Positions 11,507-44,342 of a stretch of DNA of 44,580 bases are shown piece after piece (the stretch's first letter is position 1; each line of letters opens with the position of its first letter). The notes beneath the pieces are model-generated. The model made no database searches. It was not told the DNA's origin and saw only the letters and a program-made list of their open reading frames with translations. A program made the position numbers and the translations under genes. Origin of the DNA: a virus; the IMG/VR virus record IMGVR_UViG_3300031974_001064, positions 1-44,580 of that record; one strand, given 5' to 3'.

Positions 11507-11630
11507 TAAAGGTAAAAATAGTTTAGTAGCTAATATACATAGACGTAAAAAAGCAGGTACTTCTCGTAGTAAAAAAAATAGTACTATATCTAAAAAAGCA
11601 TATAAGCAAATGCAAAAAGGTTGGAAGTAA
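11496..11630 (+). CDS. Very basic small protein, 44 aa
   Basis: The frame from ATG 11496 encodes a peptide with 15 Lys/Arg residues (for example HRRKKAGTSRSKK) and ends KGWK. GGAGAATGTAA precedes the start. Its stop overlaps the next ATG (TAATG). Such Lys/Arg-rich proteins beside terminase genes occur in marine phages. Binding to packaged DNA is an inference. Confidence 0.6.
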   Translation: MPHSKGKNSLVANIHRRKKAGTSRSKKNSTISKKAYKQMQKGWK

Positions 11631-15850: not shown

Positions 15851-15851
15851 T

Positions 15852-16178: not shown

Positions 16179-16179
16179 A

Positions 16180-24874: not shown

Positions 24875-24875
24875 A

Positions 24876-25748: not shown

Positions 25749-25830
25749 TAGAAAAGAAATTATGGATATGAAAGTTACTTTAGCTAAATTAAAGAAGCAA
25801 CTTGCAAAGGCACGTAATGGACGAAAATAA
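25738..25830 (+). CDS. Possible 30-aa coiled-coil peptide
   Basis: The frame from ATG 25738 gives a very basic amphipathic helix (MDMKVTLAKLKKQLAKARNG). It overlaps the transglycosylase by 11 bases and the next gene by 14 bases, the usual spacing for coupled genes here, and it fills an otherwise empty 70-base gap. The SD is weak (TAGG). Confidence 0.5.
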   Translation: MENNRKEIMDMKVTLAKLKKQLAKARNGRK

Positions 25831-28800
25831 ATTAGACCAGTATATAGCAAATTTTCTAAATGGTAAAAAACTCACAGGAGAAGAAACTAGAGCAGATTAT
25901 ATAGGTCAAGAAGGAAAACGATTAGCAGAAGATTTAAAAATTCTTTATGGTCAAGATGAACAAATTAACATAGCTTTATATGCTTATTACAAAGAACTTC
26001 TTGTTTGGGCTACAAACAATGGAGTAACTAGCAGTTATGATTTAGCTACGATACTTAAAGAAGGAACAAGTTTAATAAATAGACATTTCCCTTCTAGTCC
26101 TAAAGGACCTGAAGATTTATCAAAGATGATTGTTGATATGCCTAATGGAGTACAGGATGTTAAATTTCAAAATATGATTGAAAATGCAATTCATATAATG
26201 ACACAACAAATGGATGCAAATTCTTGGAAAGATTATATAAATTATGTAGATTATTTTAATGACCATTGGGTAAATCAAATGGAAAATTATAACTTTGATA
26301 TAACTTTACCTTTAGAAGAAAATATAGAAAAAGGTGAATATGCAATGCCTATTATGTCTGATGACGAATTAATAGAAACATACAATAATGAATTTTTAAT
26401 TAAACAAAGAGAAGAATTAACAAATTTATTAGTAGGAGAAAATGCAGCAATACAATATGCTGGTGGTAAATACAATGGATTAATTGCTGTAAAAAATACA
26501 TATGGAACTTATGATTTGTATGAACCAAAACCAAGGTACTATACAGATTATACTGACCCTGACAATCTTGTAGAAGATGTATTTGTTGAAATAGAAAGTT
26601 TATCTTACAGTGTAGACCCAGGTGAACCTGATGAAAATTTTCCACGGTTTACAAACTTAACTGCTAGAGAAATATATCACGAACCAATGAACCGTAGAGA
26701 AAGACTACGTTGGAATAAACAAAATAAATTGCGACCTGGCAATACAGCATTTGGTTCTACAAGTAGTGATGATGATGTACTGTCACGTAGAATAAAACAA
26801 TTAGAAGAAGATTTAAAAGCAGTAGAAAATGTTTTAAGAACAGCAGGATTATCTCAAGAAGAAATTAAAGTAGCTAATGATAAGATAAATCAACTTACTG
26901 ATGAGATAGAAGAATTATCTAGATTGCAAACATCTCAAGGAGAAAGACGTACTCCTACTGTAGCAGCAGAACCAGATTTAGGAGAAGATGTACTTGATGC
27001 ATTTGATGAATATGAATTAGAACTAGTACAAAATACTGAATTAGAAAAGAAAACAGCTAAGTTTGAACAGATGCTACTCAATAAATATAAAGAGTATATA
27101 GCTGATAAGCCACAAGATACTGAACCTTTTAGAAATATGCCTGAAGGAAGTCAACCTTTAGAAATATCTATAATAGACGATAAATTTTTGTATGTAGATT
27201 TAGTAACTATTAAACCTGAAATGCAAGGTCAACAAGGTGGAAGTATGATTATGGGTGAAATTGTAAGGTATGCGGATGAAAATAATTTACACGTTATATC
27301 TGTACCAGTTAATGATACTGTTCAACGTTCTATGAGAAAATACGGTGGTAGACAACTTTTATCAGGTTACCATTACTTTGGTTGGAAACTAGAAGAAGCA
27401 CAAGCTGCTGAAGATGAAGTATTTCAAGTACAAATAGATAGGTTTAGAAATGAATTTACACAATACACTACTGAAATAAATGCATTAAATAATGAAGAAT
27501 ACAAAGCATTAATTGCAACTGCTGAATCATCAGGTGATAGTAAACTTGTTAATTTATTTAAAGAAATAAAAGAAGGATTAACATTTGAAGATTTTAGAAT
27601 GGGTATGGCTGAAAATAAATACCATACATATGAAATAAATCCACAGGATACTCCTACACCAGGATTAGCAAGAGGCGGTTCGCCTAACAAAGATTTAATT
27701 GATTTCTTTGAAGAAATGAATAAAGAAGCTAAGTCAATACAGCTTGATAGTTATACAAATTTTGATGAGCTTTCTGGTAGACCTTCACAAGCAGGAACTT
27801 TCTTTCACTGGGTTACAAATACTAAAGTTGGCACTATGTATTTATGGCATATGTTACACAGAATGGATGAAAAAAATATTACTGCTACAGCTACACAAAT
27901 AAAACAACAAATTGAAAAAGATTTACAAAGTTTTATGGATGCTAATAGTCCTGGTCAAGGTGGACAAAATATGATTAGCAATCCACAAGCACAAGCGTAT
28001 CTCAATGCAGGTAAACAAGATACACCTATGATACTTAAAGATATAGATTTTAAAGAAGTTACTAATAGAGAAGCTAACTGGTTAGCAAGTAAAATAGGCA
28101 CACCTGAATTAAGAAATAGTTTATCTTATGAAATGTTATGGGTTGATAGTACTATAGAAGATTTAAAAGATGCTGGTGTAATAAACTATAGATTTCCTAC
28201 ACAATTAGATTTTAATGCAGACGGTAATCTAGTTATATACAGAGCTATGACCCCTATTGATGCAGCATTAGGTATTAGAGCTTACCAACCATATAGGCAA
28301 TCTGGTTTTAGTGGTAGAGTTGCAGGTTATGGTAGTGTATCTTACGCATCATCTAATGCTAATTATCCATATGAATATATAAGTTCTGTTGGTATGAACA
28401 GACAAGTGTTTGCATTAGAGATTACAGATATAACTCCAGATAATATTTTAAATATGCAAGCACCAGTAGTAATATATCCTGAAATAATGGACGCATTATC
28501 TATACCTTATACTGATAAATTAGCTATGAAGAGTGTAGATTATTTATTACATTCAAAGAATTTATTAGTTGACAAAGGATATATACCTGCAAATTTTGAT
28601 ATGGGTAGATTTAAAAAAGATTTACCACTTCTAGGAAATTTTAAAATTGTATTAAATCCTCATACAGGTCCAGGTCGCACTAAACAAATTACATATTTAG
28701 ATAATACAGGAGCAGTACAAACATATGGAGTAAGTGATAGTGGTCAATGGAAAGACTCTAGAAGAAAAATTTTTGATGAAGTATTAATTGTTGATGACAG

Positions 28801-31426
28801 TGTTGGTGTAAGAATACAAGGTATTGTAGACACAAGAAGACCAGATGATGAAATAGGTCCTAAAGATATAAAACCATTTGATGCTAATAAAGCAGTACAA
28901 AATGAAATAGACAACATTGTTAAAAATATAAGTTCTGAAGCATACCCAAATTTTTTAGTTATGGATACTGTAATAGGTAGAGTAGAAGATTTAAAAAGAG
29001 AACTTACTAATGAAATAACTAATAGGAAAAATAGTATTTTAGAACAACAATTAGGATTGTTTACTGCAGGTAGTCCATTTGACCCTGAGCTAGACATTGA
29101 GCAACTTAATAAACATATAAATGAAGAATTAAATGTACTACTACAAAACCTAAGAGCGTTTAGAAATAAGAACCCTAAAGCATCATATGAAGAATTAACA
29201 AAAGAAATTAATTTTAATTTAGAAAACCAAACAGAGTATCTTACACCTGGTGTATACAATCCAAAGTATAGTGAATATACAATTATACAACCTGGTTCAG
29301 TACTTGGTGGAGCTCCAGTTATCGATAGAAATATTTACATAAAAGAATCTATAACATTACCTAATGGAAATATAGGTTATAAACTTTGGAAGTTAATAGA
29401 TATGGAAATGCAATCTATGATATTAATAGATGAATTTGCGAATACTAAAAATGCATTGCCATCATCAAGATATGAAGTTGCTTACATACCTGAAGATAAA
29501 TTAGATTATTACAATTCTCTTTATGATGAGTTTAATAATATACAAACTGGTAAAGTTTTAAATCCTATACTTGGAGCATCAATTCAAGGTGTAATGAGAG
29601 AAGATATACTTCTTAATCCAACTTTAAAACATTTGTTAAATGAAACTGGAAATGTCATAGAGTTAGGTTTAGTACATAGCTCTCCTTATGTACCAGTTAG
29701 TATTAATGAGTTTACATCAGGTGCATTATCACCACGTGTACCAGTTGTTGACCCTACAACAGGTGATGTAAAATTTATTAATGTCGGTGGTGATGGAAGA
29801 AATAAACAACTGTTAGTTGGTATGAGTGCATCATTTGAAAATAATATTATTAAATATGAAGCAAATAAAATAACAGGTAAGTCTACAAGAGGCGTACCTA
29901 ATTATTTTCTTACAAGATTAAATTCAAATAATGTATTGACACAAGCTAATGTAATAAATGGTAGTTGGTTAAACAAGTTTAGTATTGTTGATGCTGCTGC
30001 ATCATTAGATGTATCACCAGTAGAAGTATACAAAGCATTAGAAGAAACTGGTTTAATTAGTTTATCTGATACTGGTGGCTATTACGGTACTTCATTTTCA
30101 CAAAGAGGTTCAAGACAATTCTTAGAGAGTATGGAAAAAGTATACAATAGGATTATTGGAGTACCACCTTTAAATAGTGATGGTGTAGGTTTAACTAGAT
30201 TTTTAAGAAGTGGTGGTATTGATGCCATAATAGACAACCCTAATATTAACTTTAGAAACTTTCAAGAGTTGATGATATTAGACCCTAATGACCAATCACA
30301 AATAGGTAGAGCTTTAGATATTATAGATATAACAGAGGATGACTTTAAAGAATTAAACGGAAGTTACAGAGTTGTAGACCCTGACACTGAGCCACTAAGA
30401 AACTATGAAGATATAAATACTAATCTTAGACAAACTGCTTTAGACGAAGCATATGATGTAAGAATAAATTTTGAGCAAGGATTTAGAAATGCTGAATTAG
30501 AAGCTATGGGATTATTAAGTGATGAAGCAATAGAGGAGATAAGACACTCTAGTATAATTCCTTCACAAGCAGTAGAGCTTGTGAAAGCTGGTCAACAAAC
30601 ACCAATACCTACACAATTTATAGAAGATGTAACTGAGGCATCAAGAATTATTACAGCAATAGCTGAAGATGAATACTATCAAACATTAGGAAAAATAGAT
30701 GCACTAAGAAAATCTGGTGTTGAAGGTACTGAACAAGTACTAGAAATGATTACATATCACAATCAAGCTAGTAGTAAATGGAGAGCTATACAAGCATCTA
30801 AGAATAAACTAGCTTACTCTTTTGGTAAACGTGGCGTAAGACCAACAGGATTTATGTTATTAGATATATACGAACTATCTTTGTGGGGTGGTGCTTTAGC
30901 TTATGGTACTTCAGACAAATGGACAGTATGGTTTGAGAATATAGTTAAAGATATATCTAATAATGTATTAAATACAAACTACACATTAGATGAACCTGGT
31001 CAAATAGATTATGAAAAGCTAGACAATACAATTAAGTTTGCTGAAAAGATTGACCCATTTAATATATTAGTAGGTCCAATGATAGATGATATTAAGGGAG
31101 TTAAAGAATTGTATCCTAGTTCTGTAGATGACTACGTTACTCGTGGACTAACAGATACAGAAAGAATAACAATGCCTGGATATGAATATGCACCAGGATA
31201 TAAAACTAGCGATAAAACAATTGCTGAATACTCACCAGCATTTGCAGAAATAAATGCATCTGAAATAAGTCAAGGAAAACCTATAAATAGATTTGGTGCA
31301 TTCTTTCAAAACCAAACAGCAAAATATAAAGACAATAAAGACAATGATAAGAGTAAATACTATAATACTTACAGCAGTAATTATTTAAATTTATATGAAG
31401 ATGAACCAATGGATGTGGATTTTTAA
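25817..31426 (+). CDS. Giant multidomain (polyvalent-type) protein with GNAT-like and ART-like segments, about 1869 aa
   Basis: I chose ATG 25817 (AAAGG 7 bases upstream); a TTG at 25802 would add five residues. Residues about 315-380 are a coiled coil. Residues about 445-520 resemble a GNAT acetyltransferase: a strand ending VDLVTIKPEMQGQQGGS, a helix GEIVRYADENN, then HVISVPVNDTVQ and MRKYGG. Residues about 800-990 resemble the R-S-E layout of ADP-ribosyltransferases: LVIYRAMTP, then GSVSYASSNANYPYEYIS, then FDEVLIVDD. A later SIVDAAASLDVSPVEVYKAL (about residue 1385) looks like an HTH. Polyvalent proteins with such domain strings are known from phages and are delivered with the DNA. Domain calls are by eye and moderate; the gene itself is certain. 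Confidence 0.85.
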   Translation: MDENKLDQYIANFLNGKKLTGEETRADYIGQEGKRLAEDLKILYGQDEQINIALYAYYKELLVWATNNGVTSSYDLATILKEGTSLINRHFPSSPKGPEDLSKMIVDMPNGVQDVKFQNMIENAIHIMTQQMDANSWKDYINYVDYFNDHWVNQMENYNFDITLPLEENIEKGEYAMPIMSDDELIETYNNEFLIKQREELTNLLVGENAAIQYAGGKYNGLIAVKNTYGTYDLYEPKPRYYTDYTDPDNLVEDVFVEIESLSYSVDPGEPDENFPRFTNLTAREIYHEPMNRRERLRWNKQNKLRPGNTAFGSTSSDDDVLSRRIKQLEEDLKAVENVLRTAGLSQEEIKVANDKINQLTDEIEELSRLQTSQGERRTPTVAAEPDLGEDVLDAFDEYELELVQNTELEKKTAKFEQMLLNKYKEYIADKPQDTEPFRNMPEGSQPLEISIIDDKFLYVDLVTIKPEMQGQQGGSMIMGEIVRYADENNLHVISVPVNDTVQRSMRKYGGRQLLSGYHYFGWKLEEAQAAEDEVFQVQIDRFRNEFTQYTTEINALNNEEYKALIATAESSGDSKLVNLFKEIKEGLTFEDFRMGMAENKYHTYEINPQDTPTPGLARGGSPNKDLIDFFEEMNKEAKSIQLDSYTNFDELSGRPSQAGTFFHWVTNTKVGTMYLWHMLHRMDEKNITATATQIKQQIEKDLQSFMDANSPGQGGQNMISNPQAQAYLNAGKQDTPMILKDIDFKEVTNREANWLASKIGTPELRNSLSYEMLWVDSTIEDLKDAGVINYRFPTQLDFNADGNLVIYRAMTPIDAALGIRAYQPYRQSGFSGRVAGYGSVSYASSNANYPYEYISSVGMNRQVFALEITDITPDNILNMQAPVVIYPEIMDALSIPYTDKLAMKSVDYLLHSKNLLVDKGYIPANFDMGRFKKDLPLLGNFKIVLNPHTGPGRTKQITYLDNTGAVQTYGVSDSGQWKDSRRKIFDEVLIVDDSVGVRIQGIVDTRRPDDEIGPKDIKPFDANKAVQNEIDNIVKNISSEAYPNFLVMDTVIGRVEDLKRELTNEITNRKNSILEQQLGLFTAGSPFDPELDIEQLNKHINEELNVLLQNLRAFRNKNPKASYEELTKEINFNLENQTEYLTPGVYNPKYSEYTIIQPGSVLGGAPVIDRNIYIKESITLPNGNIGYKLWKLIDMEMQSMILIDEFANTKNALPSSRYEVAYIPEDKLDYYNSLYDEFNNIQTGKVLNPILGASIQGVMREDILLNPTLKHLLNETGNVIELGLVHSSPYVPVSINEFTSGALSPRVPVVDPTTGDVKFINVGGDGRNKQLLVGMSASFENNIIKYEANKITGKSTRGVPNYFLTRLNSNNVLTQANVINGSWLNKFSIVDAAASLDVSPVEVYKALEETGLISLSDTGGYYGTSFSQRGSRQFLESMEKVYNRIIGVPPLNSDGVGLTRFLRSGGIDAIIDNPNINFRNFQELMILDPNDQSQIGRALDIIDITEDDFKELNGSYRVVDPDTEPLRNYEDINTNLRQTALDEAYDVRINFEQGFRNAELEAMGLLSDEAIEEIRHSSIIPSQAVELVKAGQQTPIPTQFIEDVTEASRIITAIAEDEYYQTLGKIDALRKSGVEGTEQVLEMITYHNQASSKWRAIQASKNKLAYSFGKRGVRPTGFMLLDIYELSLWGGALAYGTSDKWTVWFENIVKDISNNVLNTNYTLDEPGQIDYEKLDNTIKFAEKIDPFNILVGPMIDDIKGVKELYPSSVDDYVTRGLTDTERITMPGYEYAPGYKTSDKTIAEYSPAFAEINASEISQGKPINRFGAFFQNQTAKYKDNKDNDKSKYYNTYSSNYLNLYEDEPMDVDF

Positions 31427-32892
31427 TGAGTGATAGAGGTAAATATTATATAGAAGATGGTGTAATTAAAGGACCTTTAGATAAAAGCGTTATACCACAA
31501 GGTGTTACTCAGATATACGATACTGTAGAAGAAGCATCACAAGCATTAAATCCTCCAGCATCTAGAAATACTGGTTGGCTATATTCAGACAGAATGGTTG
31601 CTGATTATGTTTATTACAATCGTGATAACGGAAAAGTTTATTTTTTATATGATATAAGTTCTCTTACAGGAGAAGAAACTTTTATATCTTATGAAGCTAC
31701 AGGATTAAAACCTGGTGACTACTCAACATATTGGGATGCAGATAGTTTAGGTAACGAGAGAGTTGGACCTGCACTACAAACAGTATTGCCTGCAGGAGAA
31801 ATAATTACATCAGAAGGTGTTGTTGGTCCTAAACTTACAATGCAAAACTTTACTGTAGCAAGAACTGCACAGGGAATAAACCTAGGTAATTACATAGGTG
31901 AAACTATGGAAAGCCTTGAAGAAATGTATCCATTTATATTTGATGAAGTTGAAGGTAGACTACCTGCATTAGGTTTAATATTTAACTCTATTACAAGTGG
32001 TAAAGAAATTACTACTGAACAGCTAACTGCTGCAGGTGTAGGTAAAGGATTTACAAAACTTAAACTAGATTACTTAAATGCAACGATAGCATCTATAGAA
32101 GGTGAAAGTCATTTCTATAATAAAGTAGATGAGAATGGTAATAAAGTTAAAACACTTAACCAAGCCTATGTTGCATTAGAGAATACAGTTAGCTCTGCTA
32201 TAGATAGAGCATTAGGAAACATAGGTATTAATGCTGATGTGTTTAAACAAGATAACGTTGAATTGTATCAACAAATACTAAGTGCATTAGTTATGGGTGA
32301 TGTTGAGTATGATAGCACTACAGGTGATACTACAGATTTTGAAAAGTACTTAGGTTATAGACTAGGTATTGATGGATACAATATAGATAAAGAAAGCATA
32401 CTGCACGATACTTATAAAAAGATAGATACTATTGTAGATAATCCTGGTCAGTTTAATGCTTTTATAGATTTCGATTCGTTTAAATTATCTAATACTGCTA
32501 TATCAGAACTTAAAAGAATAATAGGTCCTGGTAAATATAATGCTTTAGATGAAGCAGAAAAGCAAAGACTTATAGGTTTATATGCAAGAGATACTAATGC
32601 TGCAATGCAAGAGTATCAAAAGATATTTGATGGTGACCCATTGTTTGAAAGATATGCTAACAAAGGTTTGAACTATTCATTAATTGTAGGTAATTATAGA
32701 AATAATTATTCAACTATATTAGGTGATGCTGCAGATGAAACAAGTAATATCTTTATGGATTCATTGAATATGTCATATGAGGATGCAAAGAAATCATATA
32801 TGGAGTACGGTTATAAAACTGGTAACAAAAAATATATGAAAGACTTAGCAAACTCTATATCACAATCACTTGGAGGAGTAGTAATTAGATAA
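31426..32892 (+). CDS. Unknown virion-type protein, 488 aa
   Basis: Its ATG overlaps the previous stop (TAATG). The N-terminal 130 residues look beta-rich (GKYYIEDGVIKGPL, KVYFLYDISSL); the rest is helical and acidic. No motif is recognised. It continues the portal-to-scaffold block, so an internal or ejected virion protein is the best guess. Confidence 0.78.
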   Translation: MSDRGKYYIEDGVIKGPLDKSVIPQGVTQIYDTVEEASQALNPPASRNTGWLYSDRMVADYVYYNRDNGKVYFLYDISSLTGEETFISYEATGLKPGDYSTYWDADSLGNERVGPALQTVLPAGEIITSEGVVGPKLTMQNFTVARTAQGINLGNYIGETMESLEEMYPFIFDEVEGRLPALGLIFNSITSGKEITTEQLTAAGVGKGFTKLKLDYLNATIASIEGESHFYNKVDENGNKVKTLNQAYVALENTVSSAIDRALGNIGINADVFKQDNVELYQQILSALVMGDVEYDSTTGDTTDFEKYLGYRLGIDGYNIDKESILHDTYKKIDTIVDNPGQFNAFIDFDSFKLSNTAISELKRIIGPGKYNALDEAEKQRLIGLYARDTNAAMQEYQKIFDGDPLFERYANKGLNYSLIVGNYRNNYSTILGDAADETSNIFMDSLNMSYEDAKKSYMEYGYKTGNKKYMKDLANSISQSLGGVVIR

Positions 32893-34010
32893 TGGCAAAG
32901 TATACATTATATAGAAGAGATGACTTATCAGGTAATGTTGTAGCTGATGATAGTAAATATATTGTTGGTGATGATGGTATTAAAAGAAATGAGTTAGAAC
33001 ATTATACAAAAAAGGCTGGTTATACAGTTGATAAAGAAGAAGCAGAAGGTTTAGCAGCAGCATATGCTAATACTTCTAGTTCATCTACACAAAGTACTAC
33101 TACTGATGGCAAGACTACAACTAGGTCACAGGTTTATACATTACTTCCTTGGCTACAAAAGTATGCTGGTGCTGATGCTAATACTTTAGTTGATGCATAT
33201 GTAAAAGGATATAACGATAGTGGTGGTCAATCAGAATTTGCATTAGCTGAAATGAGATTTGGTAAAGATAGTGCAGAAGCATACAAAAGAGTATTTGCTA
33301 ATATTGTAGACCCTGATACAGGTGCATTAAAGATGACAGAATCAGAATACATATCAGGACTAGAAAAAGTTTTAACTACTCTTACAGAGTATAACTTAAA
33401 TGGTTATGCATCTGCTAAAGGTAAATCAGTATGGGCTACATTGGTAGGTAATAATGTATCTGCTGAAAGTTATACTAATAGAATTGGATTGGTATATAAC
33501 AGAGTTGTCAACAGAATGGATGATGAATTAAAAACTTCTATCATTAATCAATACAATGAATACTTTACACAAGCTACTGGTACTCCTGTGAGTATGGGTA
33601 ATGAAAGTATTTTAGCTATAGCTATAGACCCAAATATAAATGAAGATGTATTAGCTGGTAGATTAAATGCATCAGAGATAGGTGCTGTTTACACTGGTGT
33701 AACTGGGGATGCATTAGATTTAGGTTCAGTACAAAGACTTACTGGTGCTGGTGTTACTACACAAACTGCTGAAAGACAGTTTGCTACTGCATCTGCTACA
33801 GCTAAAGCATTAGCTAGAATGCAGAGAAGACAACGTAGAGATGTTACTTTAGGTAAAGCTACTGCTGTATTAGAAGCACAGTTGTTTGGTGATGAGCTTA
33901 TATCTGGTCAAATTAAATCAATAGGTGCTCAAGCATTGTCTGCTAGTTCAGTACAAGTAGGTGCAGCTAAAACACAAACAGGTGGCGTAATAGGCTTGAC
34001 AGAAATTTAA
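32892..34010 (+). CDS. Unknown virion-type protein with Ala/Thr/Gln-rich C-terminus, 372 aa
   Basis: It begins with a beta-rich 50 residues (MAKYTLYRRDDLSGN), then a Ser/Thr linker (TSSSSTQSTTTDGKTTT), then helical domains. The last 100 residues are Ala/Thr/Gln-rich amphipathic helices (TAERQFATASATAKALARMQ with RRQRRD). This type of C-terminus is frequent in ejection proteins that assemble on the portal. It is the last gene of the 17.8-kb block and is followed by a 194-base gap. Confidence 0.78.
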   Translation: MAKYTLYRRDDLSGNVVADDSKYIVGDDGIKRNELEHYTKKAGYTVDKEEAEGLAAAYANTSSSSTQSTTTDGKTTTRSQVYTLLPWLQKYAGADANTLVDAYVKGYNDSGGQSEFALAEMRFGKDSAEAYKRVFANIVDPDTGALKMTESEYISGLEKVLTTLTEYNLNGYASAKGKSVWATLVGNNVSAESYTNRIGLVYNRVVNRMDDELKTSIINQYNEYFTQATGTPVSMGNESILAIAIDPNINEDVLAGRLNASEIGAVYTGVTGDALDLGSVQRLTGAGVTTQTAERQFATASATAKALARMQRRQRRDVTLGKATAVLEAQLFGDELISGQIKSIGAQALSASSVQVGAAKTQTGGVIGLTEI

Positions 34011-34204
34011 AACATAGTACCATATATAGTACTGCGTGGTGAGTTCCGCAGGTTATAAATAGGGTCACAAGATACAACAGAAAAATCCAAGGTATTCTGT
34101 TAGTTGTTCAAAATCCTTGTCGTAAAACAATTCCCTTTTCAATTTCCAAGCAATTGAATGTATATAGGGTTAGTAATGCTTGAGATAACTAGGAGAGATA
34201 AATT
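34011..34204 (+). promoter_or_regulatory. Intergenic structured region before scaffold and capsid genes
   Basis: This is the longest gap on the right side. It holds CTGCG/CGCAG (34032-34051), AACAGAA/TTCTGTT (34076-34101, 7 bp, loop of 12), and an AT-rich segment with TGTATATAG near 34160 that could be a -10 box. The scaffold SD AGGAGAG follows. A processing site plus a strong promoter for the highly expressed capsid genes is the likely content. No single promoter can be fixed. Confidence 0.45.
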
Positions 34205-34672
34205 ATGTCAGAAGAACAAAACCAAGATGATTTTCAGGGAGGAATATCAGAGTTAAGGGCTGAGTTCAAAAAGCTAAAAGCTGAGAACAAAGAACTTAGA
34301 AATTCTGCTATGCACTCTGCACTATCATCATTAGGACTAGAAGCAGATAAAGGTATAGGTAAAGCTGTATCTAAGATGTATGACGGTCCAGTTACTGTTG
34401 ATGCTATCAAACAATATGCATCTGAAGAATTTGGTTTAGGCGACAGTGAAGTTGCAGCCGAACCACAAACTGCAGAAGAAGCTAGCGTTGTTGATAACAC
34501 AGTATCAGCACAACAAAGAGTTCAAAACTTGCAGAACTTAGGAGTATCTAATAATTCGCAAGATATATTAGATGTCTTTAGTGAAGTCTTGAAACAATCT
34601 GACGGAGATATTAGGTCATCTATCAAAGCTAAAATGCAAATGATAGAAGGCATTAAAAGACAAGAACAATAA
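34205..34672 (+). CDS. Capsid scaffolding protein, 155 aa
   Basis: An N-terminal coiled coil (ISELRAEFKKLKAENKELRN) is followed by a conserved helical part (LGLEADKGIGKAVSKMYDG and AIKQYASEEFGLG), an acidic linker and a C-terminal helix with basic residues. The middle segment closely resembles scaffolding proteins of actinobacteriophages. It is directly before the major capsid gene. It should template prohead assembly and leave before or during packaging. Confidence 0.85.
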   Translation: MSEEQNQDDFQGGISELRAEFKKLKAENKELRNSAMHSALSSLGLEADKGIGKAVSKMYDGPVTVDAIKQYASEEFGLGDSEVAAEPQTAEEASVVDNTVSAQQRVQNLQNLGVSNNSQDILDVFSEVLKQSDGDIRSSIKAKMQMIEGIKRQEQ

Positions 34673-34695
34673 CTATAAGTTAGGAGATAATTAAA

Positions 34696-35775
34696 ATGGC
34701 AGCATTAGGTTCAGCCAACCCAATTTACTCTAAGTACATCAACAACTTTGCTGGTGAATTATTTAGAGTTGGTGGTCAAAGAACTCCTTTTACAGCCGCA
34801 GTAGGTGGTATGTCAGGTGGAGGTAAAGTATTACAATCCACATTCTGGCAATTCCAAACTGCTGATACAGCATCTGTTACCTCAGCTCCATCAGTTGGAA
34901 CTGAAGGTGGACAACCTACAGAATGGCTTGGAAGAGATAGAGTATCATACACAGCCGTTACTCAAATCTTTCAAAAAGGTGTTAAAATGTCATACACAGC
35001 TATGGCAGCTACTAACCACCAAAATGTATTTGACGTTAGTGCAAATGCTTTCAACATATCAGACGGAAACGCAGGAAACACTGCTGGTGACAAACTAGCA
35101 TTGTTTGGTGGTTCCCCAATTACTGATGAGTTTGCAGAGCAAATGGAACTAGCATTAGACAAACTTGCAAAAGAAGTTGAATGGTTTGCTATCAACGGTG
35201 TTTACAACGATGGTACAGCAGCAGACTTCGCAGGTGTAAACGATAGACAAATGAGAGGTCTATTAGCACACTGTGGATTAACTGGAGGAAACTCTTATGA
35301 TAATCAATCAGGTGGTGTTGACCAACCTCTACACTGGGATACTATTGCAAACTCATTGAAGGTTTTGTATGATGCAAAAGCAGCAATGAAGCAACCAGTT
35401 CTATTGATTAACCCTTCACAATTACTTGCACTTAATAAAGAATTAATTGCACCAACAGTATCAGGGGTTATTACACCTGCTATCTTACCAAGAGATAGAA
35501 ACGTTGGTGGTGTTGATATTGATACCATTATCACACCATTTGGAAATATCGGATTAATGGTCGTAGACCCTGATATTCTTCCAGACAATACTTGCTTCAT
35601 CGCAGATTTAGCATTTATTTCACCAGTGTTTACAAACATTCCTGGTAAGGGTACAGTTTTTGTTCGTGACGTAGACCAAGATGACTATGCACGAGTAGCA
35701 AAAGCAATTTATATGGAGATGGGATTTGACTTCGGTCCTCCTCAGAACCATCTAAAGATTACAGGTGTTCAATAA
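34696..35775 (+). CDS. Major capsid protein (HK97 fold, SU10/DUF5309-like), 359 aa
   Basis: It follows the scaffold after 23 bases, with SD TAGGAGATAA. It has the expected order: N-terminal arm, a Gly-rich loop (GGMSGGGKVLQST), the Glu-rich EGGQPTEW, a long spine helix (EFAEQMELALDKLAKEVEWFA), and the C-terminal A-domain (VLLINPSQLLALNKEL, then FGNIGLMVVDPDIL). The arrangement resembles SU10/DUF5309 capsid proteins. The codon choice is the least A/T-biased in the genome, as expected for the most expressed gene. A hairpin terminator follows. Confidence 0.92.
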   Translation: MAALGSANPIYSKYINNFAGELFRVGGQRTPFTAAVGGMSGGGKVLQSTFWQFQTADTASVTSAPSVGTEGGQPTEWLGRDRVSYTAVTQIFQKGVKMSYTAMAATNHQNVFDVSANAFNISDGNAGNTAGDKLALFGGSPITDEFAEQMELALDKLAKEVEWFAINGVYNDGTAADFAGVNDRQMRGLLAHCGLTGGNSYDNQSGGVDQPLHWDTIANSLKVLYDAKAAMKQPVLLINPSQLLALNKELIAPTVSGVITPAILPRDRNVGGVDIDTIITPFGNIGLMVVDPDILPDNTCFIADLAFISPVFTNIPGKGTVFVRDVDQDDYARVAKAIYMEMGFDFGPPQNHLKITGVQ

Positions 35776-35801
35776 ACCCTGTTAAATAATTAATACTTAT
35801 T

Positions 35802-35825
35802 GGGGAGTTTCCACCACTCCCCTTT
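35802..35825 (+). terminator. Terminator after the major capsid gene
   Basis: GGGGAGT (35802-35808) pairs perfectly with ACTCCCC (35816-35822) around a 7-nt loop, followed by only three T. It is likely a partial terminator that lowers expression of the downstream tail genes relative to capsid. Confidence 0.75.
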
Positions 35826-35826
35826 A

Positions 35827-35848
35827 AGTATGGTATGATAAGGACGAT
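35827..35848 (+). promoter_or_regulatory. Candidate extended -10 promoter before the 112-aa gene
   Basis: AGTATGGTATGATAAGGA fits an extended -10 (TGGTATGAT) 9 bases before the ATG. Similar strings, AGTATGTTATTATAGGA at about 43656 and TTATGTTATAATCC at about 43987, sit in the same position before other genes. AAGGA also serves as SD, so a short-leader or leaderless message is possible. No clear -35 is seen. Confidence 0.45.
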
Positions 35849-36187
35849 ATGATTAGAACAATAGGTAAAGACGCTGTTATTACAGTTGCTACAGATGCTA
35901 GTAATTCTGCTGGTGTTAAAACAGACGCTATGTTATTAACAGGAATATTATTTCCTGCAACAATGACAGGAACAAGCGTAACATTTGATTTTTCATTTGA
36001 TGGAACTAACTGGGTAGATGTAGTAGAAACAGATGGAACAGAAGTTTCATATGTTGTTACTGCAGGAGATGTTGTAAGAGTAGACCCTAGTGGTTGGGCA
36101 TTTGCTTCATCAGGTTATTTAAGAATTACATCAAGTGCAACAGAAGCAGCAGACAGAACAATATCATTAATATTTAGAACAAGTTAG
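35849..36187 (+). CDS. Beta-sandwich virion protein (capsid decoration candidate), 112 aa
   Basis: It is built of beta-strands alternating with Gly/Asp/Thr turns (VTFDFSFDGTNWVDVVETDG, VVRVDPSGWAF), with a C-terminal TISLIFRTS strand. FSFDGTNWVDV is a common phage virion strand motif. Its position after the capsid gene and the small jelly-roll-like size suggest capsid decoration or a head fibre. Unproven. Confidence 0.72.
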   Translation: MIRTIGKDAVITVATDASNSAGVKTDAMLLTGILFPATMTGTSVTFDFSFDGTNWVDVVETDGTEVSYVVTAGDVVRVDPSGWAFASSGYLRITSSATEAADRTISLIFRTS

Positions 36188-36195
36188 GAGAGCCA

Positions 36196-37221
36196 ATGAG
36201 TAATCTTGGTAATCTTGTAGATAGAACTTTTAGAGAGTATCTAGAACCATTAGATAATCTAAATAGTTACACTACCTTAACAACAGGTATAAACAATAGT
36301 GAAACTTCTATTGCATTTAATGGAGATTTATTATCTGTTGAGGAAGAAGATGCACTAGACGCAGGTACAGTAATAGAGATAGGTAGAGAGTTAATGCTTT
36401 GTACAGATTTAAATGCTGTAACAAATACTATTACTGTAGTTAGAGGAGTAAGAGGAACTACAGCAGTAAGTCATACAGCAGGAGAAATTATTAAAATAGC
36501 TCCAACATTTCCAAGACAAAATGTTTTTGATGCAGTAGTTGACCAAATAGAAACTTTGTACCCTACTTTGTTTGCAGTAGAAACTTTAACCGTTACAAAC
36601 AAAGAAGGATATACAATTCTTGGTAGCTATGATACACCTGGTACTTACAACTATTTAGTAGCACCTATTAAAGCTATATCACAATACACCCAATGGGATG
36701 GTAATGCAGATAGCACATCAGTACAATGGCGTGGTGTTTCAGTAGAGTTAGTAGACCTACCTAATCCTTATACATACAATGATGAGAATGGAGTAGAAAG
36801 AACTATAACTTATAGTGCTGGTCCAAATGTTGTACACGCATTACAAACATATGGTATATCTAGTGGATTTCAAGTACACGTTACATTTAAAAAAAAGTTT
36901 TTAGACAAAGATAGTTATACATATGTCAGTGATATAGAAGAAACTACTCTTACTTCAATAGGATTACAAACAGAATACGAACCAATTATTATGGCTGGTG
37001 TAGCTGCACAGTTGTTAGCTGGTAGAGATATACCAACTTCTACTGCAAATTATATTACAGACCAAATGGGTGTTCAGAATTTTCCTGTTAACTCTGCGTC
37101 AAACATTCGTAATAGTTTATTACAATATAAGCAACAACTTATACAACAAGCTAGAAAAGATTTAAGAGCTAGATATCCAGAACCAGTAACAATAAATAGT
37201 ATTTCCTATCCAAGTTCATAA
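36196..37221 (+). CDS. Head-tail adaptor / tail tube-like protein, 341 aa
   Basis: Residues about 25-100 form a beta domain ending TITVVRGVRGTTAVSHTAGE, a module also found in the 182-aa protein at 39196. The remaining part mixes helices and strands. It lies between the capsid and nozzle genes, matching the gp11-like adaptor slot of podoviruses. SD GGAGAGCC precedes the ATG. The last codon overlaps the next ATG. Confidence 0.7.
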   Translation: MSNLGNLVDRTFREYLEPLDNLNSYTTLTTGINNSETSIAFNGDLLSVEEEDALDAGTVIEIGRELMLCTDLNAVTNTITVVRGVRGTTAVSHTAGEIIKIAPTFPRQNVFDAVVDQIETLYPTLFAVETLTVTNKEGYTILGSYDTPGTYNYLVAPIKAISQYTQWDGNADSTSVQWRGVSVELVDLPNPYTYNDENGVERTITYSAGPNVVHALQTYGISSGFQVHVTFKKKFLDKDSYTYVSDIEETTLTSIGLQTEYEPIIMAGVAAQLLAGRDIPTSTANYITDQMGVQNFPVNSASNIRNSLLQYKQQLIQQARKDLRARYPEPVTINSISYPSS

Positions 37222-39188
37222 TGCCTAGAGTAGCTACCACTTCTAACATAAACAATCCTAAAAGATATGGGTATGATGTCAGGATAGATAACATATTACT
37301 TCGTTCTGCTGTTGGTCCTGGTAGAGAGATGCAAATACAATCATCTGATGTACAAGAACAACAGATTAATGTTAAACAAAACCCAGAAGATTTTACATCT
37401 AACTTAGGTCGTATCTATTCGAGAAATAACTTTGCAGGTGGACAAGGTTTAGATACAGCACATAGAGCTAATGGTACGCCTAAAGATACAACAAGATTTT
37501 TTGATAGCAAAGGTGTAGATGTATTTCATGGAGATGATGAAACTTCTTATCACACTCATTTGTTATACACAATGGAAACTAAAGGATTAACATTTACGAC
37601 TTCTGAACAATACTTAGTTCAAACTACTAATGGGCATTTATATGTTTCTGATGGTTTAGTAATTTATAAAAGCACAGACTATGGCGACAACTGGTCAACA
37701 GTACCAAGTACAAATGTATTGTATGCAATAAAAGGTATGGTTGCTTTTGGTAATAATGTTTTTGTTGTAACTGGAGATGGTGGAACAAATAAACAACTTA
37801 TACATTTTGATGAAACAACTTGGACAAATGAAAGTTTAGGAACATCTATTAGTGGATACTTTACTGGTATTTGGTTTGTTAAAGGTAGATTAATTGTTAC
37901 AGGTAAAAGCACTACAGCAGAATATTTATGGGAAGCAGACCCTTATACAGGAAACTTTACAAATGTATTTCAAACTGCACAAGCAATAATAACTGTAGAA
38001 CCTACACACAATATTTCAGCAGTTATTGATGCAGGTGCGGTTATATTAGCTTCTAGTACAGATGGCAATATATATTCTTTAAAAGATAATGCAGGAACTT
38101 TAGAATCTAAAGGACAATCAAGAATAGGAGATGAAGAAGTACATTCCATTGAAGCACTAGAAGGTATTATATTTTTTGGTACACAAGAAGTAAGTACAAA
38201 TAAAGGCAGATTATATAGAAGTGATTTGGTAGTAGCAGATGACTTGTATGTATTAGCTAACAGACAATTATTAAAAGAATGGAATAATGGTGTAGCAGGT
38301 TCTCCTCACTCTATGTTTGCATCAAGAGATAGTATCTATGTAGGTGTCAGAGAAAGTGATACTGATACTTATTTGTGGAGATATTACTTACCTACTGCAG
38401 GTTTAGCTAGAGATTTAAAAGTACCTGGACAAGGTTTAGTAGGTGGAATTAAACAAGTACAAGGTAAATACTTTGTATTAGTTGAAGGAACAACTGGTGG
38501 TGTTTATAAAGAAACATCTACTTACGAAAACGAAGGTTATGTTATTATGTCTGCTGCAGATTTTTATACAGCTGAACATAAACAATTTGTAGGTGCAGAA
38601 ACTTCTACATTTACTATGCCTAGTAATACAAGTATAGAATTATATTATTCAACTAAGTTTGAAGCATTAGACAATCCTGATGACACATCATTTAAGTTAG
38701 CATTTACACAAGCTACTGGTGTTGGTGATGAAGAAAAACAAATAGCAGATATTGCTAGATACATTATAGGTAAAGTTGTTTTAAAGTCAGAAAATGGTGC
38801 AAATACACCTAAAGTTAAATCAGTACAGTTTCGTGCATTAGCTAGACCAGAACTTGTAGTAGCACAAATACCTATAAACATTAGTGATAGAGTAGAAAGA
38901 CCAGGTAGAAAACCCATAAAGGTTAAAGGTCTTGGAAATACATTGTACAATACACTTCGTGCAAAAGAAGGTGATAGTGTTACCTTAGAATTATATGACC
39001 CTGCAGAAATTATTAGAGGTGTAGTAGAAAGAATTAGTTATCCAATAAATTCTAATGTTGAAAGAGGAAGCGTAACACAGTATGCTATAATAACTGTGCG
39101 TGGTACTAGACAACCAACTGTTACTGATGTAACAGGTGTAAACTTGTTTGGTATAAACGCACTAGGATTTATAAGATTTGGTGCTTAG
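37221..39188 (+). CDS. Tail nozzle-like beta-propeller protein, 655 aa
   Basis: After a polar N-terminus, residues about 125-420 repeat a blade-like pattern (GHLYVSDGLVIYKSTDYGDNW, NNVFVVTGDGG, GRLIVTGKST, GRLYRSDLV). The first includes an Asp-box (STDYGDNW) near residue 151. The C-terminal third is beta-rich. The size, propeller and position after the adaptor agree with P22 gp10/T7 gp12-type nozzles. The Asp-box is structural here; a sialidase activity is not implied. One of the few CATG sites lies at 37527. Confidence 0.75.
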   Translation: MPRVATTSNINNPKRYGYDVRIDNILLRSAVGPGREMQIQSSDVQEQQINVKQNPEDFTSNLGRIYSRNNFAGGQGLDTAHRANGTPKDTTRFFDSKGVDVFHGDDETSYHTHLLYTMETKGLTFTTSEQYLVQTTNGHLYVSDGLVIYKSTDYGDNWSTVPSTNVLYAIKGMVAFGNNVFVVTGDGGTNKQLIHFDETTWTNESLGTSISGYFTGIWFVKGRLIVTGKSTTAEYLWEADPYTGNFTNVFQTAQAIITVEPTHNISAVIDAGAVILASSTDGNIYSLKDNAGTLESKGQSRIGDEEVHSIEALEGIIFFGTQEVSTNKGRLYRSDLVVADDLYVLANRQLLKEWNNGVAGSPHSMFASRDSIYVGVRESDTDTYLWRYYLPTAGLARDLKVPGQGLVGGIKQVQGKYFVLVEGTTGGVYKETSTYENEGYVIMSAADFYTAEHKQFVGAETSTFTMPSNTSIELYYSTKFEALDNPDDTSFKLAFTQATGVGDEEKQIADIARYIIGKVVLKSENGANTPKVKSVQFRALARPELVVAQIPINISDRVERPGRKPIKVKGLGNTLYNTLRAKEGDSVTLELYDPAEIIRGVVERISYPINSNVERGSVTQYAIITVRGTRQPTVTDVTGVNLFGINALGFIRFGA

Positions 39189-39963: not shown

Positions 39964-40311
39964 ATGGCAACAGAAGTATTTAATAGTGCAAGTCAAGCTG
40001 TAACAAGTTCTGAAACTACTATATTTACTGCACCATCAGATGCAGGTGATATTGCTATTATTTTGTCATTAAGAATTACCAACATTGATGGTACAAATGA
40101 TGACACAATTACAGCAAATATTTATCAAAGTGATGGCACAACAAAAAAAGCTGCAATAGCATCAACAATTAATGTTCCTGCTAACAGCTCTATTGAATTA
40201 GCAGGTACAAGTAAAATAGTTCTTGAAGCAGGAGAGATTGTAAAATTACAAGGTGCTGCTGCATCAGGTGATTTAGAAGCATACTGTAGCGTATTAGAGT
40301 TACAAGCATAG
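39964..40311 (+). CDS. Beta-sandwich tail or decoration protein, 115 aa
   Basis: All-beta pattern with Asp/Asn/Thr turns (IAIILSLRITNIDGTNDD, TITANIYQSDGTTKKA), reminiscent of fibronectin-like or head-fibre domains of marine phages. SD GGAGATATAA. It lies immediately before the paralog array and still follows the genome-wide CATG avoidance. Confidence 0.7.
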   Translation: MATEVFNSASQAVTSSETTIFTAPSDAGDIAIILSLRITNIDGTNDDTITANIYQSDGTTKKAAIASTINVPANSSIELAGTSKIVLEAGEIVKLQGAAASGDLEAYCSVLELQA

Positions 40312-40320: not shown

Positions 40321-40938
40321 ATGTCCTATGGATATTTAGGTAATGAACCTAGTCAGCTAAAATCAAATACAGGAATATTTACTGTAAATGATGCAGCAGA
40401 TTTAGAACAAGATAATGAATTTGGTGGTGCTATGGAACTAATAGAAAGCATTACTGTATCTAATGAACCTGCTGATTTTGAAACATTACATTTAAATAAA
40501 TACGCATTTCATGTTTTAGTATTTAAAGGAATACAACTTACTAATGACCAATCATATTTAGCACTTCGTTTTAATAATGGTTCAGGTTATCAAGCAGGTA
40601 CTGCTTATGTTTCATCAATGATAAACTATGGTCCTACAAACTGGGGAACATATAAAAGTAATGGACAAGGTTATATTTATTTATCAAGAAAAGCAGGTAA
40701 TCAAAACAAAGAAAGAATTAATGGTATTGCTTGGATATATGGTTTAAGTAGTGGTCAGTTTCCTCATGTTCAAATGAACTCTGTTTACCAAGACCAAAAT
40801 GGTCAAAATCAAGGTGTCTATGGTGGTGGTACTTATGACTTAGATACAAATGAAATAACAGGTATTAGAGTATGTCAATATTTAACTACTGATAATTTAA
40901 TTGAAGGACAAGCAACTTTATATGGAGTAAAAGGATGA
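40321..40938 (+). CDS. Receptor-binding candidate, array member 1, 205 aa
   Basis: It begins SYGYLGNEPSQ..., very like the start of array member 4 (HNYIGTKPTQ...SGVFSVND). It is all beta with many Gly/Asn/Tyr and ends ATLYGVKG, the array's Tyr-Gly-hydrophobic terminus. SD GGAGTAG. It contains two CATG sites (40510, 40765), the first cluster in the genome. The short N-terminal segment may be the docking part to the adaptor, the rest the host-recognition body. Confidence 0.72.
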   Translation: MSYGYLGNEPSQLKSNTGIFTVNDAADLEQDNEFGGAMELIESITVSNEPADFETLHLNKYAFHVLVFKGIQLTNDQSYLALRFNNGSGYQAGTAYVSSMINYGPTNWGTYKSNGQGYIYLSRKAGNQNKERINGIAWIYGLSSGQFPHVQMNSVYQDQNGQNQGVYGGGTYDLDTNEITGIRVCQYLTTDNLIEGQATLYGVKG

Positions 40939-41429
40939 GTGCATTAAGACTTATTAGAAGTGGAACTGTTACTGATGGTTCACAACACCATGATGTACAA
41001 GATGTATTTTCAGATAAATTTGATGCCTATGAAATACATACCATATGGAGTGGTTCTAATAATGGTGATGCTGATATGAAATTTTTAAGCGAAGATGGTC
41101 AATGGGTACACTATGTTAGAGGTTCTAAAATAATAGCTTATACACATACAACTGATGCTGATAGTGCTAATCCTTCTACAAGACAAATAGAAAGTGGACT
41201 AACTTCATCAGTTAAAGGTGCAGCTAGAATAATTGTTTTAAATCCATACTCAAAAACAACTGATACTGTTGTGCATAAAAGTGTAATGTCTTACTCTAGT
41301 ACAACAGTTGCAGCAACTAGAGATGGTAATTCTGTTGTTTACGAACCTGCAAGAATAACTGGTTTTGCTTTTGCAGGAGAATATAGTGCATTAAATAACA
41401 TTAATTATTATGTTTATGGGTTGGCATAA
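40935..41429 (+). CDS. Receptor-binding candidate, array member 2, 164 aa
   Basis: It overlaps member 1 by 4 bases (ATGA). All-beta sequence beginning SALRLIRSGTVTDGSQ and ending NNINYYVYGLA, keeping the terminal Tyr-Gly-Leu. It is similar in length and layout to members 3, 5 and 6. One CATG site (40989). Host-surface binding is an inference from the array and its place at the end of the tail module. Confidence 0.7.
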   Translation: MSALRLIRSGTVTDGSQHHDVQDVFSDKFDAYEIHTIWSGSNNGDADMKFLSEDGQWVHYVRGSKIIAYTHTTDADSANPSTRQIESGLTSSVKGAARIIVLNPYSKTTDTVVHKSVMSYSSTTVAATRDGNSVVYEPARITGFAFAGEYSALNNINYYVYGLA

Positions 41430-41939
41430 ATGAGTTTTGTAAAAGTAAATGAAGTGTTAGCAGATGGTTCAACAACTGTACTGCTTGATGGCATAGATAG
41501 TAATGAAGTATATTACTTTACTGGTACAGGAATAAAAGCTGATACAACAACACAGCATGGAATAATTAGATTACATGATGGTACTTCTGCTTTAACAACA
41601 GGTTATGTATCAGGTTCAGGTCATCAAAGAAGGCATGATGCAGCAAGTAATGTATTTACTATGTCTGGTTCTTATATTCATTATGCTTGGCATCATGCTA
41701 TGCCAAGTGATGCTACTGGTAATGTAGAAGGTTGGTTATATGGATTATATGATGCTTCAGTAGCAGCTTATGTAGCTACTAGATGTACAAATCGTTACTC
41801 TACAAACACACAACTTGGCTCATTAACAGCATCAAGTAATAATACTGCAACATCATTTACAGGAATAGAGTTTGACAATACAACTTCTGTTAATATTACA
41901 GAAGGTAAGTTTAAATTATATAGATTTGTAGGTTCATAA
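41430..41939 (+). CDS. Receptor-binding candidate, array member 3, 169 aa
   Basis: It starts directly after the stop of member 2. Beta-rich with His-rich stretches (SGHQRRHDAAS, YIHYAWHHAMP) and a terminus KLYRFVGS that departs slightly from Tyr-Gly-Leu. Four CATG sites in 510 bases (41556, 41574, 41634, 41694), the densest in the genome, because His is written CAT before G here instead of CAC. Confidence 0.7.
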   Translation: MSFVKVNEVLADGSTTVLLDGIDSNEVYYFTGTGIKADTTTQHGIIRLHDGTSALTTGYVSGSGHQRRHDAASNVFTMSGSYIHYAWHHAMPSDATGNVEGWLYGLYDASVAAYVATRCTNRYSTNTQLGSLTASSNNTATSFTGIEFDNTTSVNITEGKFKLYRFVGS

Positions 41940-42598
41940 TGAAACATAATTATATAGGAACAAAACCAACACAATCTTGGAAAAATAATTCAGGTGTGTT
42001 TAGTGTTAATGACCATAAAAATTTAAAAGAAGAAGATAAAATAGCATCTACTTATGGATTAGAGTTTATATCTAAAACAAGTTTTAGTAACAATACAATA
42101 GAAATTACATTTCCACAAAACTATGAAACATTTATGTTAGTCATAAACAATATGTCTTGTGGAGGTGGTATTCAAACTCCTAGTTTTAGAGTTAAATTTG
42201 AAGGAGAAAGTTCTTTTCATACTGCTTCACAATATAAACATATGTATAGATTGTATGATGATGCAGGTACTGCTATTGATGATGGTTCACGAGGTCAAGC
42301 CTATGGAGAGTTTGGTCCAAGAACTGCTAATACACAACCTAAATCTACACAAGTAGTTTCATGGCTTATGAATTTTACTACTGCAGGAATACCTGCAACT
42401 ATGATTTCACAAGGACATTCTACTTATGTAGTAGGAACACATTATGGAAGTCATGGTGGAAATCAAATAGAAAATACAGCAAACATTGTTGCTATGGAAA
42501 TCAATAGTAATAATGGAACTAGCGTTATATCAGGTGATGTAATTCTTTATGGGTTAAAAGCACCTAAGCTAGACAACGCAACGATTGTAGGTGCATAA
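41939..42598 (+). CDS. Receptor-binding candidate, array member 4, 219 aa
   Basis: The N-terminal about 30 residues (NYIGTKPTQSWKNNSGVFSV) match member 1, so these two share a docking segment. The body is beta-rich (TFPQNYETFMLVINNMSC) and ends VILYGLKA. It overlaps member 3 by one base. Two CATG sites (42360, 42452). Confidence 0.72.
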   Translation: MKHNYIGTKPTQSWKNNSGVFSVNDHKNLKEEDKIASTYGLEFISKTSFSNNTIEITFPQNYETFMLVINNMSCGGGIQTPSFRVKFEGESSFHTASQYKHMYRLYDDAGTAIDDGSRGQAYGEFGPRTANTQPKSTQVVSWLMNFTTAGIPATMISQGHSTYVVGTHYGSHGGNQIENTANIVAMEINSNNGTSVISGDVILYGLKAPKLDNATIVGA

Positions 42599-43116
42599 TG
42601 GAATTGTTATATACAGCTACATTAAACAAAGATTTAGATAATGCTCATAGTATATTTGAATGCAATAATATTTTTACAACTGAATACCATACTTATAAAA
42701 TATTTATTAGAGCAGTTGGTAATCAATCTACATATAAACAATACAGACTTATGAACGCTAGTGGACAAATATCTACTGTAACTTATGCAGCCGATAGTAT
42801 ACATTTTAGAAGTTCTGGTGCAGCTAATACTGATGGTGCAGCTAGCGTTGGCGGTATGATGGCAGATGTACATACTCTTAGAGATATTCGTTTTCAACCT
42901 GGTATAGTTTTTACTGTTTTTAATCCTGCTGATGCTAATTACAAAACTGTGTGTAGAGTAGAAGGTATAAGTGATTATGATGCAAATTATATTACATTTG
43001 AAAGTAATGCTTCAAGAGAAGTTACATTACAAGCAGTAACAGGATTTACTTATAATGCCTATGGTATTGGAGAAGATATAGAAGGTATGCAGATAGAAGT
43101 GTATGGTATAAAATAA
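42598..43116 (+). CDS. Receptor-binding candidate, array member 5, 172 aa
   Basis: It overlaps member 4 by one base. All-beta, with YHTYKIFIRAVGNQS early and the ending MQIEVYGIK. It has no CATG site, unlike the other members, although it is flanked by them. SD is weak; translation is probably coupled. Confidence 0.7.
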   Translation: MELLYTATLNKDLDNAHSIFECNNIFTTEYHTYKIFIRAVGNQSTYKQYRLMNASGQISTVTYAADSIHFRSSGAANTDGAASVGGMMADVHTLRDIRFQPGIVFTVFNPADANYKTVCRVEGISDYDANYITFESNASREVTLQAVTGFTYNAYGIGEDIEGMQIEVYGIK

Positions 43117-43655
43117 TGAGTGCATTAGTAAAAATTTCAGAACAAACTTTTTCAACAGCAGCAGATATAACTATTACAGGTTTTACTACAGACTATGATA
43201 TTTATTATTTAAGCGTACAAAAAGCTAGAACTACACAAGCTAATGCTTATTTAGATTTTAGATTTACAACAAATACTCCTAGTGCAGGTACACCAATAAC
43301 TACTACTGATTATCAACAAAGTGGATATGTAGGACACGCAGCTTTTGCATCACCTGCTGCATGGAGCGTTTCAGGAACTAGCTCACCTAAGTGGACATAT
43401 ATATCACAAAATAATAATGGTGAGGGTTATTACAATGAAGCATGGATATTTAATCCTGCAGATGCAACACAAGAAACAACAATGTTAGTAACAGCTACTG
43501 GTAATGCTAGAAGTGATGCTGTAGGACACATGTTTGGAAGTATACGATTAACACAAAATAGTGTAGTAGATGGTATACAAATTTACCCTTCAGGTGGTGC
43601 TTCATATTCTGTACAAGAAGCTGAAGTTTATTTATATGGTTTAAAAACAAGTTAA
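43116..43655 (+). CDS. Receptor-binding candidate, array member 6, 179 aa
   Basis: Typical of a broadly spread phage tail protein family: TITGFTTDYDIYYLSVQKAR, then LDFRFTTNT, then a variable middle (SGYVGHAAFASPAAWSVSG), and the end EAEVYLYGLKTS. Three CATG sites (43370, 43441, 43529). It is the last of the six and is followed by the chaperone-like gene, as expected for the end of a tail-fibre cassette. Confidence 0.75.
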   Translation: MSALVKISEQTFSTAADITITGFTTDYDIYYLSVQKARTTQANAYLDFRFTTNTPSAGTPITTTDYQQSGYVGHAAFASPAAWSVSGTSSPKWTYISQNNNGEGYYNEAWIFNPADATQETTMLVTATGNARSDAVGHMFGSIRLTQNSVVDGIQIYPSGGASYSVQEAEVYLYGLKTS

Positions 43656-43678: not shown

Positions 43679-43981
43679 ATGGCGACATTAGAAGAACTTA
43701 CAGTAGAAGCACAAGCAGAAGTTGATGCTGCTAAACCATTAATGAAAAATGTTGATGGTGAAGTTAGAGAATTAACTGAAGAAGAATATGCACAAAGAGT
43801 TATTGATACTGCAAATTCCAAATGGGAAATACAACAGTTTTCATACAAGGAACTTCGACAAGCAGGTTATGGTTCTATTCAAGACCAGTTAGATATGCAA
43901 TACTGGGATTTAGTAAATGGTACTACTGTTTGGAAAGACCATATCGCACAAGTTAAATCAGATAATCCAAAACCTGAATAA
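43679..43981 (+). CDS. XkdW-like tail-fibre chaperone/assembly protein, 100 aa
   Basis: The C-terminal half (LRQAGYGSIQDQLDMQYWDL, then VNGTTVWKDHIAQVKSDNPK) is the conserved XkdW-type pattern seen at the end of many phage tail-fibre operons. The N-terminal half is acidic and helical. Promoter-like AGTATGTTATTATAGGAGA directly precedes it. It may help fold or attach the receptor-binding array. Confidence 0.75.
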   Translation: MATLEELTVEAQAEVDAAKPLMKNVDGEVRELTEEEYAQRVIDTANSKWEIQQFSYKELRQAGYGSIQDQLDMQYWDLVNGTTVWKDHIAQVKSDNPKPE

Positions 43982-44004
43982 AGTTTTATGTTATAATCCT
44001 GCTT

Positions 44005-44163
44005 ATGGATTTTATAATTGGTTTTTTACTAGGTATTTTTTTAAAAGATATTGGTAAACATCTTAAAAGATTAAGCACTTGGGATTGGGAAAATCGTAAC
44101 TACTACGATAAAGCCTACACTTGGAGTGATGATATCTATATGTCAGAGGATGACCTTCCATAA
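44005..44163 (+). CDS. Membrane-anchored small protein, 52 aa
   Basis: The frame from ATG 44005 begins with one hydrophobic segment (MDFIIGFLLGIFLKDIG), then a basic stretch and an acidic, Trp/Tyr-rich cytoplasmic-type tail. TATGTTATAAT lies just upstream, a good extended -10. A spanin-like, antiholin or small-holin role is possible; nothing specific is recognised. It is the first gene of the lysis cassette. Confidence 0.65.
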   Translation: MDFIIGFLLGIFLKDIGKHLKRLSTWDWENRNYYDKAYTWSDDIYMSEDDLP

Positions 44164-44342
44164 TGGCTACTTCAAAATCTGGTAATGGATATACACAGAA
44201 GGAGTTAAATCAAATGATATTTGATAAACTAGAAAAGATTGAAGAGAAGCTAGACCAAAAATTAGATAAGTCAGAGTTTTATAAAGTACTTGCATTAATA
44301 GGTACTGTTGTTTCATTAGTAGGTTTGTTTGCAACAATATAA
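44163..44342 (+). CDS. Coiled-coil plus C-terminal membrane segment (XhlA-like), 59 aa
   Basis: The ATG overlaps the previous stop (TAATGG). Residues about 12-38 form a heptad coil (FDKLEKIEEKLDQKLDKSE) and residues about 41-59 a single hydrophobic helix ending the protein (VLALIGTVVSLVGLFATI). This is the layout of XhlA-type lysis accessory proteins found next to holins and amidases. Confidence 0.7.
   Translation: MATSKSGNGYTQKELNQMIFDKLEKIEEKLDQKLDKSEFYKVLALIGTVVSLVGLFATI

Follow-up and report, generated by a model that had tools for sequence, protein, structure and literature searches.

The window, the whole 44,580 bp stretch of DNA analysed here, has two ends that overlap by 74 bp and looks like a complete genome, either circularly permuted or terminally repeated. 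It is best explained as belonging to a marine tailed phage, so far uncultured, of a family purged of GATC. An array of six tandem genes lies between two conserved anchor genes, together with a further small gene (table 1). Two very long genes, 16180–23133 (2317 aa) and 25802–31426 (1874 aa), are also found in this 44.6 kb genome.

Table 1. Features of the window. L002 and L003 are its backbone siblings (see text).
Feature	Coordinates	Strand	Description
CATG-purged backbone	1..37220		one CATG (9154)
Tail gene, mosaic	37221..39188	+	655 aa; one CATG (37527)
5′ anchor gene	39964..40311	+	about 110 aa; common to array-type and fibre-type relatives; L002 and L003 similarity stops at its end
Array member 1	40321..40938	+	205 aa; two CATG; predicted beta-sandwich (model pLDDT 80.5); family homologues 23–33% identical
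Array member 2	40935..41429	+	164 aa; one CATG; predicted all-beta (model pLDDT 74)
Array member 3	41430..41939	+	169 aa; four CATG, every one an in-frame CAT-Gxx codon pair
Array member 4	41939..42598	+	219 aa; paralogue of member 1; two CATG
Array member 5	42598..43116	+	172 aa; zero CATG
Array member 6	43116..43655	+	179 aa; three CATG
100 aa gene	43679..43981	+	almost exclusively beside array-type cassettes; belongs to exchanged unit
3′ anchor	43988..44297	+	short conserved ORF, starts ATGTTATAATCCTGCTTATGG

The array proteins would probably bind receptors. Searches of the array members against Pfam and PHROGs returned nothing significant. Many uncharacterised phage proteins, some of them named side tail fibre or glycine-rich domain proteins, have predicted folds that match the model of member 1 (best E 5e-14). 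Comparison of the same model with the PDB gave weak matches to galectin-like lectin domains (E 0.006, TM at most 0.5).

CATG and GATC in the window

Fifteen CATG sites occur in the window: one at 9154, one at 37527, twelve at 40510–43529 and one at 44466. The preliminary description had counted about 15, with 12 of them in 40321–43655, four in member 3 and none in member 5, and a recount bears these figures out. The array stretch makes up 7.5% of the window. Its 12 sites compare with 9.7 expected from base composition or 20 from a Markov model, whereas the remaining 41.2 kb holds 3 sites against 127–129 expected. Random placement of 15 sites produced such clustering in 0 of 20,000 trials (binomial value 1e-11). 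GATC is missing from the whole window (about 115–137 expected) and, as had been stated, from the array as well (6–10 expected). GC content is nearly equal in array and backbone (32.4% and 33.8%), so that ordinary composition hardly marks the array. The window also lacks AAGCTT, GAATTC and CTTAAG and contains ACTAGT once (expected 12, 9, 6 and 17); this pattern is partly common to the siblings and variable across the family.

The contrast is also seen at the level of codons. Under codon control, the array has 12 CATG observed for 11.0 expected and the backbone 2 for 67.6 (Fisher p ~1e-11). The earlier claims of a near-random count inside the array and of an observed/expected contrast with the rest of the genome hold on this measure too. 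Restriction-site avoidance is evident in the backbone after compositional and codon control, for GATC (0/115) as well as for CATG. Where a G follows, histidine is encoded 40 times by CAC and once by CAT in the backbone, and once by CAC and eight times by CAT in the array (Fisher p 1.5e-7). Codons for Ser, Pro, Thr and Ala that precede TGN end in A in 0 of 28 cases in the backbone and in 3 of 7 in the array. The CATG contrast between array and backbone is synonymous and does not stem from the protein sequences.

One slot, different cassettes

Relatives were collected by a scan with the tail protein encoded at 36196–37221, which yielded 67 loci. L002 and L003, from other metagenomes, are backbone siblings of the window, with 83–98% nucleotide identity over most of the backbone and 74–79% in some early-gene stretches; L026 is the same virus as L002 (99.9%). 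All 15 CATG of the 38.9 kb L002 contig, and all 8 of the 24.7 kb L003 contig, lie inside the slot that in the window is taken up by the array. The slot is occupied there by a glycine-rich fibre (phrog_2295; 333 or 299 aa), a 153–157 aa gene (phrog_7759), phrog_7084 genes and others. Codon-controlled counts for the window, L002 and L003 together are 2/93 in the backbones and 32/35 in the cassettes (observed/expected). Dinucleotide and tetranucleotide signatures are clear for the L002 and L003 cassettes; they are a weak import marker for the window array, whose values do not stand out from those of other segments.

The slot behaves as an exchangeable module, since backbones that are closely similar carry different contents in it and the transitions are sharp. 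L002 and L003 are 92–93% identical on either flank of the slot and have little similarity within it, and the 5′ break falls just before the first cassette gene. Between the window and L002, similarity breaks already at about 37.2 kb. Sharp boundaries had been predicted near 40.3 and 43.7 kb: breaks at the cassette edge are indeed present between L002 and L003, but only there, and on the 3′ side the cassette extends up to the anchor ORF at about 43,988, which makes the gene at 43679–43981 part of it. Homologues of this gene are found in L019, L038, L041, L042, L045, L047, L051, L053, L056/57 and L068.

The window's tail gene is itself assembled from pieces. Those at 37221–37521 and 38535–39188 are L023-like (91–97% nt), and that at 37521–38535 is L057-like (84–97%). 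A gene adjoining this tail gene has 92% protein identity to L002. Despite the mosaicism, 37.6–40.3 kb of the window is CATG-free; L023 is itself CATG-poor (5/46). On the simplest reading of these sequences, the tail-gene exchange would be older or differently sourced and the array exchange newer.

Array-type cassettes like the window's are present at the same place in more distant family members. Across the rest of the family, codon-controlled CATG amounts to 219/245 in cassettes and 563/660 in backbones (observed/expected), and there is no strong avoidance outside the sub-clade in either compartment. In L031 and L064 the corresponding values are 0/18 in cassettes and 0/49 in backbones. In a capsid tree, the five phages with CATG-free backbones (window, L002, L003, L030 and L031) form one supported clade. 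A tail-protein tree does not place L030/L031 with the other three, and this conflict indicates that the backbones themselves are mosaic. L030/L031 share 88% identity with the window in the capsid protein and 67% in the tail protein, a case of backbone mosaicism between CATG-free phages.

The scanned relative loci and the closer capsid relatives, cassettes included, have no GATC or almost none. Because this absence is common to almost all contigs of the clade, the donor would lie inside it, and the cassette pool looks, from the sequences, confined to a GATC-purged clade most of which tolerates CATG. GATC is at or above expectation in L094–L108, L112 and L113 (about 50–52% capsid identity), so that sister clades differ in this word in an all-or-none fashion. 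A further word, GGCC, is well above Markov expectation in L038, L041, L048, L052–L054, L057–L060, L063, L064 and L073, and absent from most other members, window included.

For L003, a related cassette was found in another phage. L134 tolerates CATG (35 of 52 expected) and is free of GATC, and its cassette is colinear with that of L003 (fibre 76% aa identity; others 47–80%, most 67–80%). Its backbone genes are 53–65% identical to the focal clade, so the contrast with cassette identity is modest. Two CATG in gene L003:7358 stand at the same codons in L134, and none of the nine CATG in L134's aligned backbone is kept in L003. Of all the observations, this match points most directly to a CATG-tolerant source for the L003 cassette. 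For the window's own array, the direction of transfer is one that we infer. Single-protein scans with members 1, 3, 4 and 6 found no source, the member 1 alignment contained no stretch conserved enough for scanning, and arrays in the family are only about 21–33% identical to the window's. A megablast of window positions 20001–44580 against isolated phages gave no match.

The preliminary description had proposed one recent import from a phage that avoids GATC and tolerates CATG. The type of donor stands, since the rest of the family consists of such phages, with L134 the example for L003. The single event does not: three different cassettes, none of them purged, sit on the closely similar backbones of the window, L002 and L003.

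Probable recurrent exchange and its alternatives

The best explanation, to which we give a probability of about 0.85 as a whole, is recurrent exchange of host-recognition cassettes with CATG-tolerant, GATC-avoiding members of the same family, outpacing the CATG purge. The following steps are envisaged. (i) The family would have purged GATC, and the window's sub-clade would also have purged CATG from its backbone, most simply because its hosts cut that site. (ii) An exchangeable host-recognition cassette would sit between the two conserved anchor genes. In the window, this putative cassette comprises six tandem proteins of predicted beta-sandwich fold and the 100 aa gene; in the siblings, it comprises one glycine-rich fibre, a possible chaperone and accessory genes. 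(iii) Recombination with GATC-avoiding, CATG-tolerant family members would replace the cassette. (iv) Replacement would be faster than the clearing of CATG from the incoming cassette by selection, so that CATG content would report how recently a piece arrived.

Selection against CATG might instead have lapsed recently, in which case a fast-evolving cassette would have regained the word by in-place mutation while the slow backbone preserved a fossil purge. No part of the genome diverges more than the cassette, which speaks for this explanation, yet it is very improbable. When the 2,487 backbone substitutions between the window and L002 were placed at random (300 trials), 33 new CATG arose on average, with a minimum of 18, against none in L002 and a single one in the window. 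Tetramers that are not avoided turned over normally across the same divergence (27–57 gained each), and the cassettes differ in gene content, beyond sequence. CATG avoidance is still acting on the backbone, and the cassettes were replaced within this same divergence.

An exemption of the slot from CATG selection, through late cell entry or shielding for example, would account for three different cassettes that are all unpurged. It is very improbable, however, because the slot is CATG-free in L030/L031 (0/9) and L064 (0/22) and is therefore not exempt; moreover, nearly all members have lost GATC from the slot. Cassettes can be purged, as in L030/L031 and L063/L064, although the L030/L031 cassette could instead stem from a CATG-avoiding donor. 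The record is a metagenome contig, and its array could in principle be an assembly chimera, but the window ends overlap, the anchors that flank the array do so in many relatives as well, and contigs from other metagenomes repeat the pattern, which leaves this reading a very slight chance. Histidine-rich protein sequence, codon usage or base composition as the origin of the array sites, suggested by the finding that eight of the nine CATG in members 1–4 are in-frame His-Gxx codon pairs, is refuted by the synonymous test (CAC before G in 40 of 41 cases in the backbone, CAT in 8 of 9 in the array) and opposed by the near-equal GC.

Hosts, restriction and significance

Host scanning found MCP homologues in a single Actinomycetota MAG, which has two, and none in the other 41 genomes of that MAG's order. 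Genomes of the order are about 1 Mb in size. From genome size and habitat, the candidate host order would be Actinomarinales, the host link being weak. Marine Actinomarinales phages with a variable part tied to host-receptor access have been described (PMC7771536). D12-class methyltransferase matches are present in 7 of the 42 genomes of the candidate order; most are of Dam type, and some stand beside nuclease-like genes. Nothing comparable was found for CATG, and no CATG-cutting system came to light. In one genome of the order, a NADAR-DarT1 type antitoxin gene adjoins a Dam-family methyltransferase gene (L119:647-1360). Restriction–modification would be the selective agent against CATG and GATC. 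Growth of the donor in a different host strain, as first proposed, is plausible as a candidate idea.

Marine phage genomes, conserved for the rest, have variable parts that include host-recognition genes, the metaviromic islands of Mizuno et al. (2014, PMC3909814). The window resembles these in carrying variable host-recognition genes on a conserved genome. Those islands were found by read under-recruitment, whereas the present one is marked as a newcomer independently, by a purged restriction-type word. Phages have likewise been described in which short palindromes of the sort expected for Type II restriction–modification sites are strongly depleted, GATC among the most so (BMC Genomics 2018, PMC6286503), and the window's losses are of this kind. 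As far as that account goes, avoidance is a property of whole genomes; in the present case one module departs from it, the avoidance is nested (GATC across the family, CATG within a sub-clade), and it serves to time exchange. Alteromonas phages exchange a fibre and chaperone module between backbones (PMC10579305), a comparable traffic to judge by what that source sets out. In the siblings studied here, differing architectures, a six-gene array or a single fibre, share one slot. The literature searched yielded no previous study that dates module exchange by word avoidance, which is no proof of absence. Swapping of receptor genes and avoidance of restriction sites are both familiar; here one is read through the other.

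Lost restriction words may serve as nested passports and clocks, with cassettes circulating only among GATC-purged phages and the remaining CATG fraction dating swaps relative to backbone divergence; we hold the chances of this to be even. The purged word provides an internal time stamp, by which host-recognition genes are seen, in sibling genomes and without cultures, to turn over faster than selection cleans them. In any phage clade that strongly avoids a word, it becomes possible to measure how fast swapping proceeds relative to purging. A newly arrived cassette that still carries its sites should expose the phage once more to cutting in hosts that restrict CATG, a testable cost of exchange.
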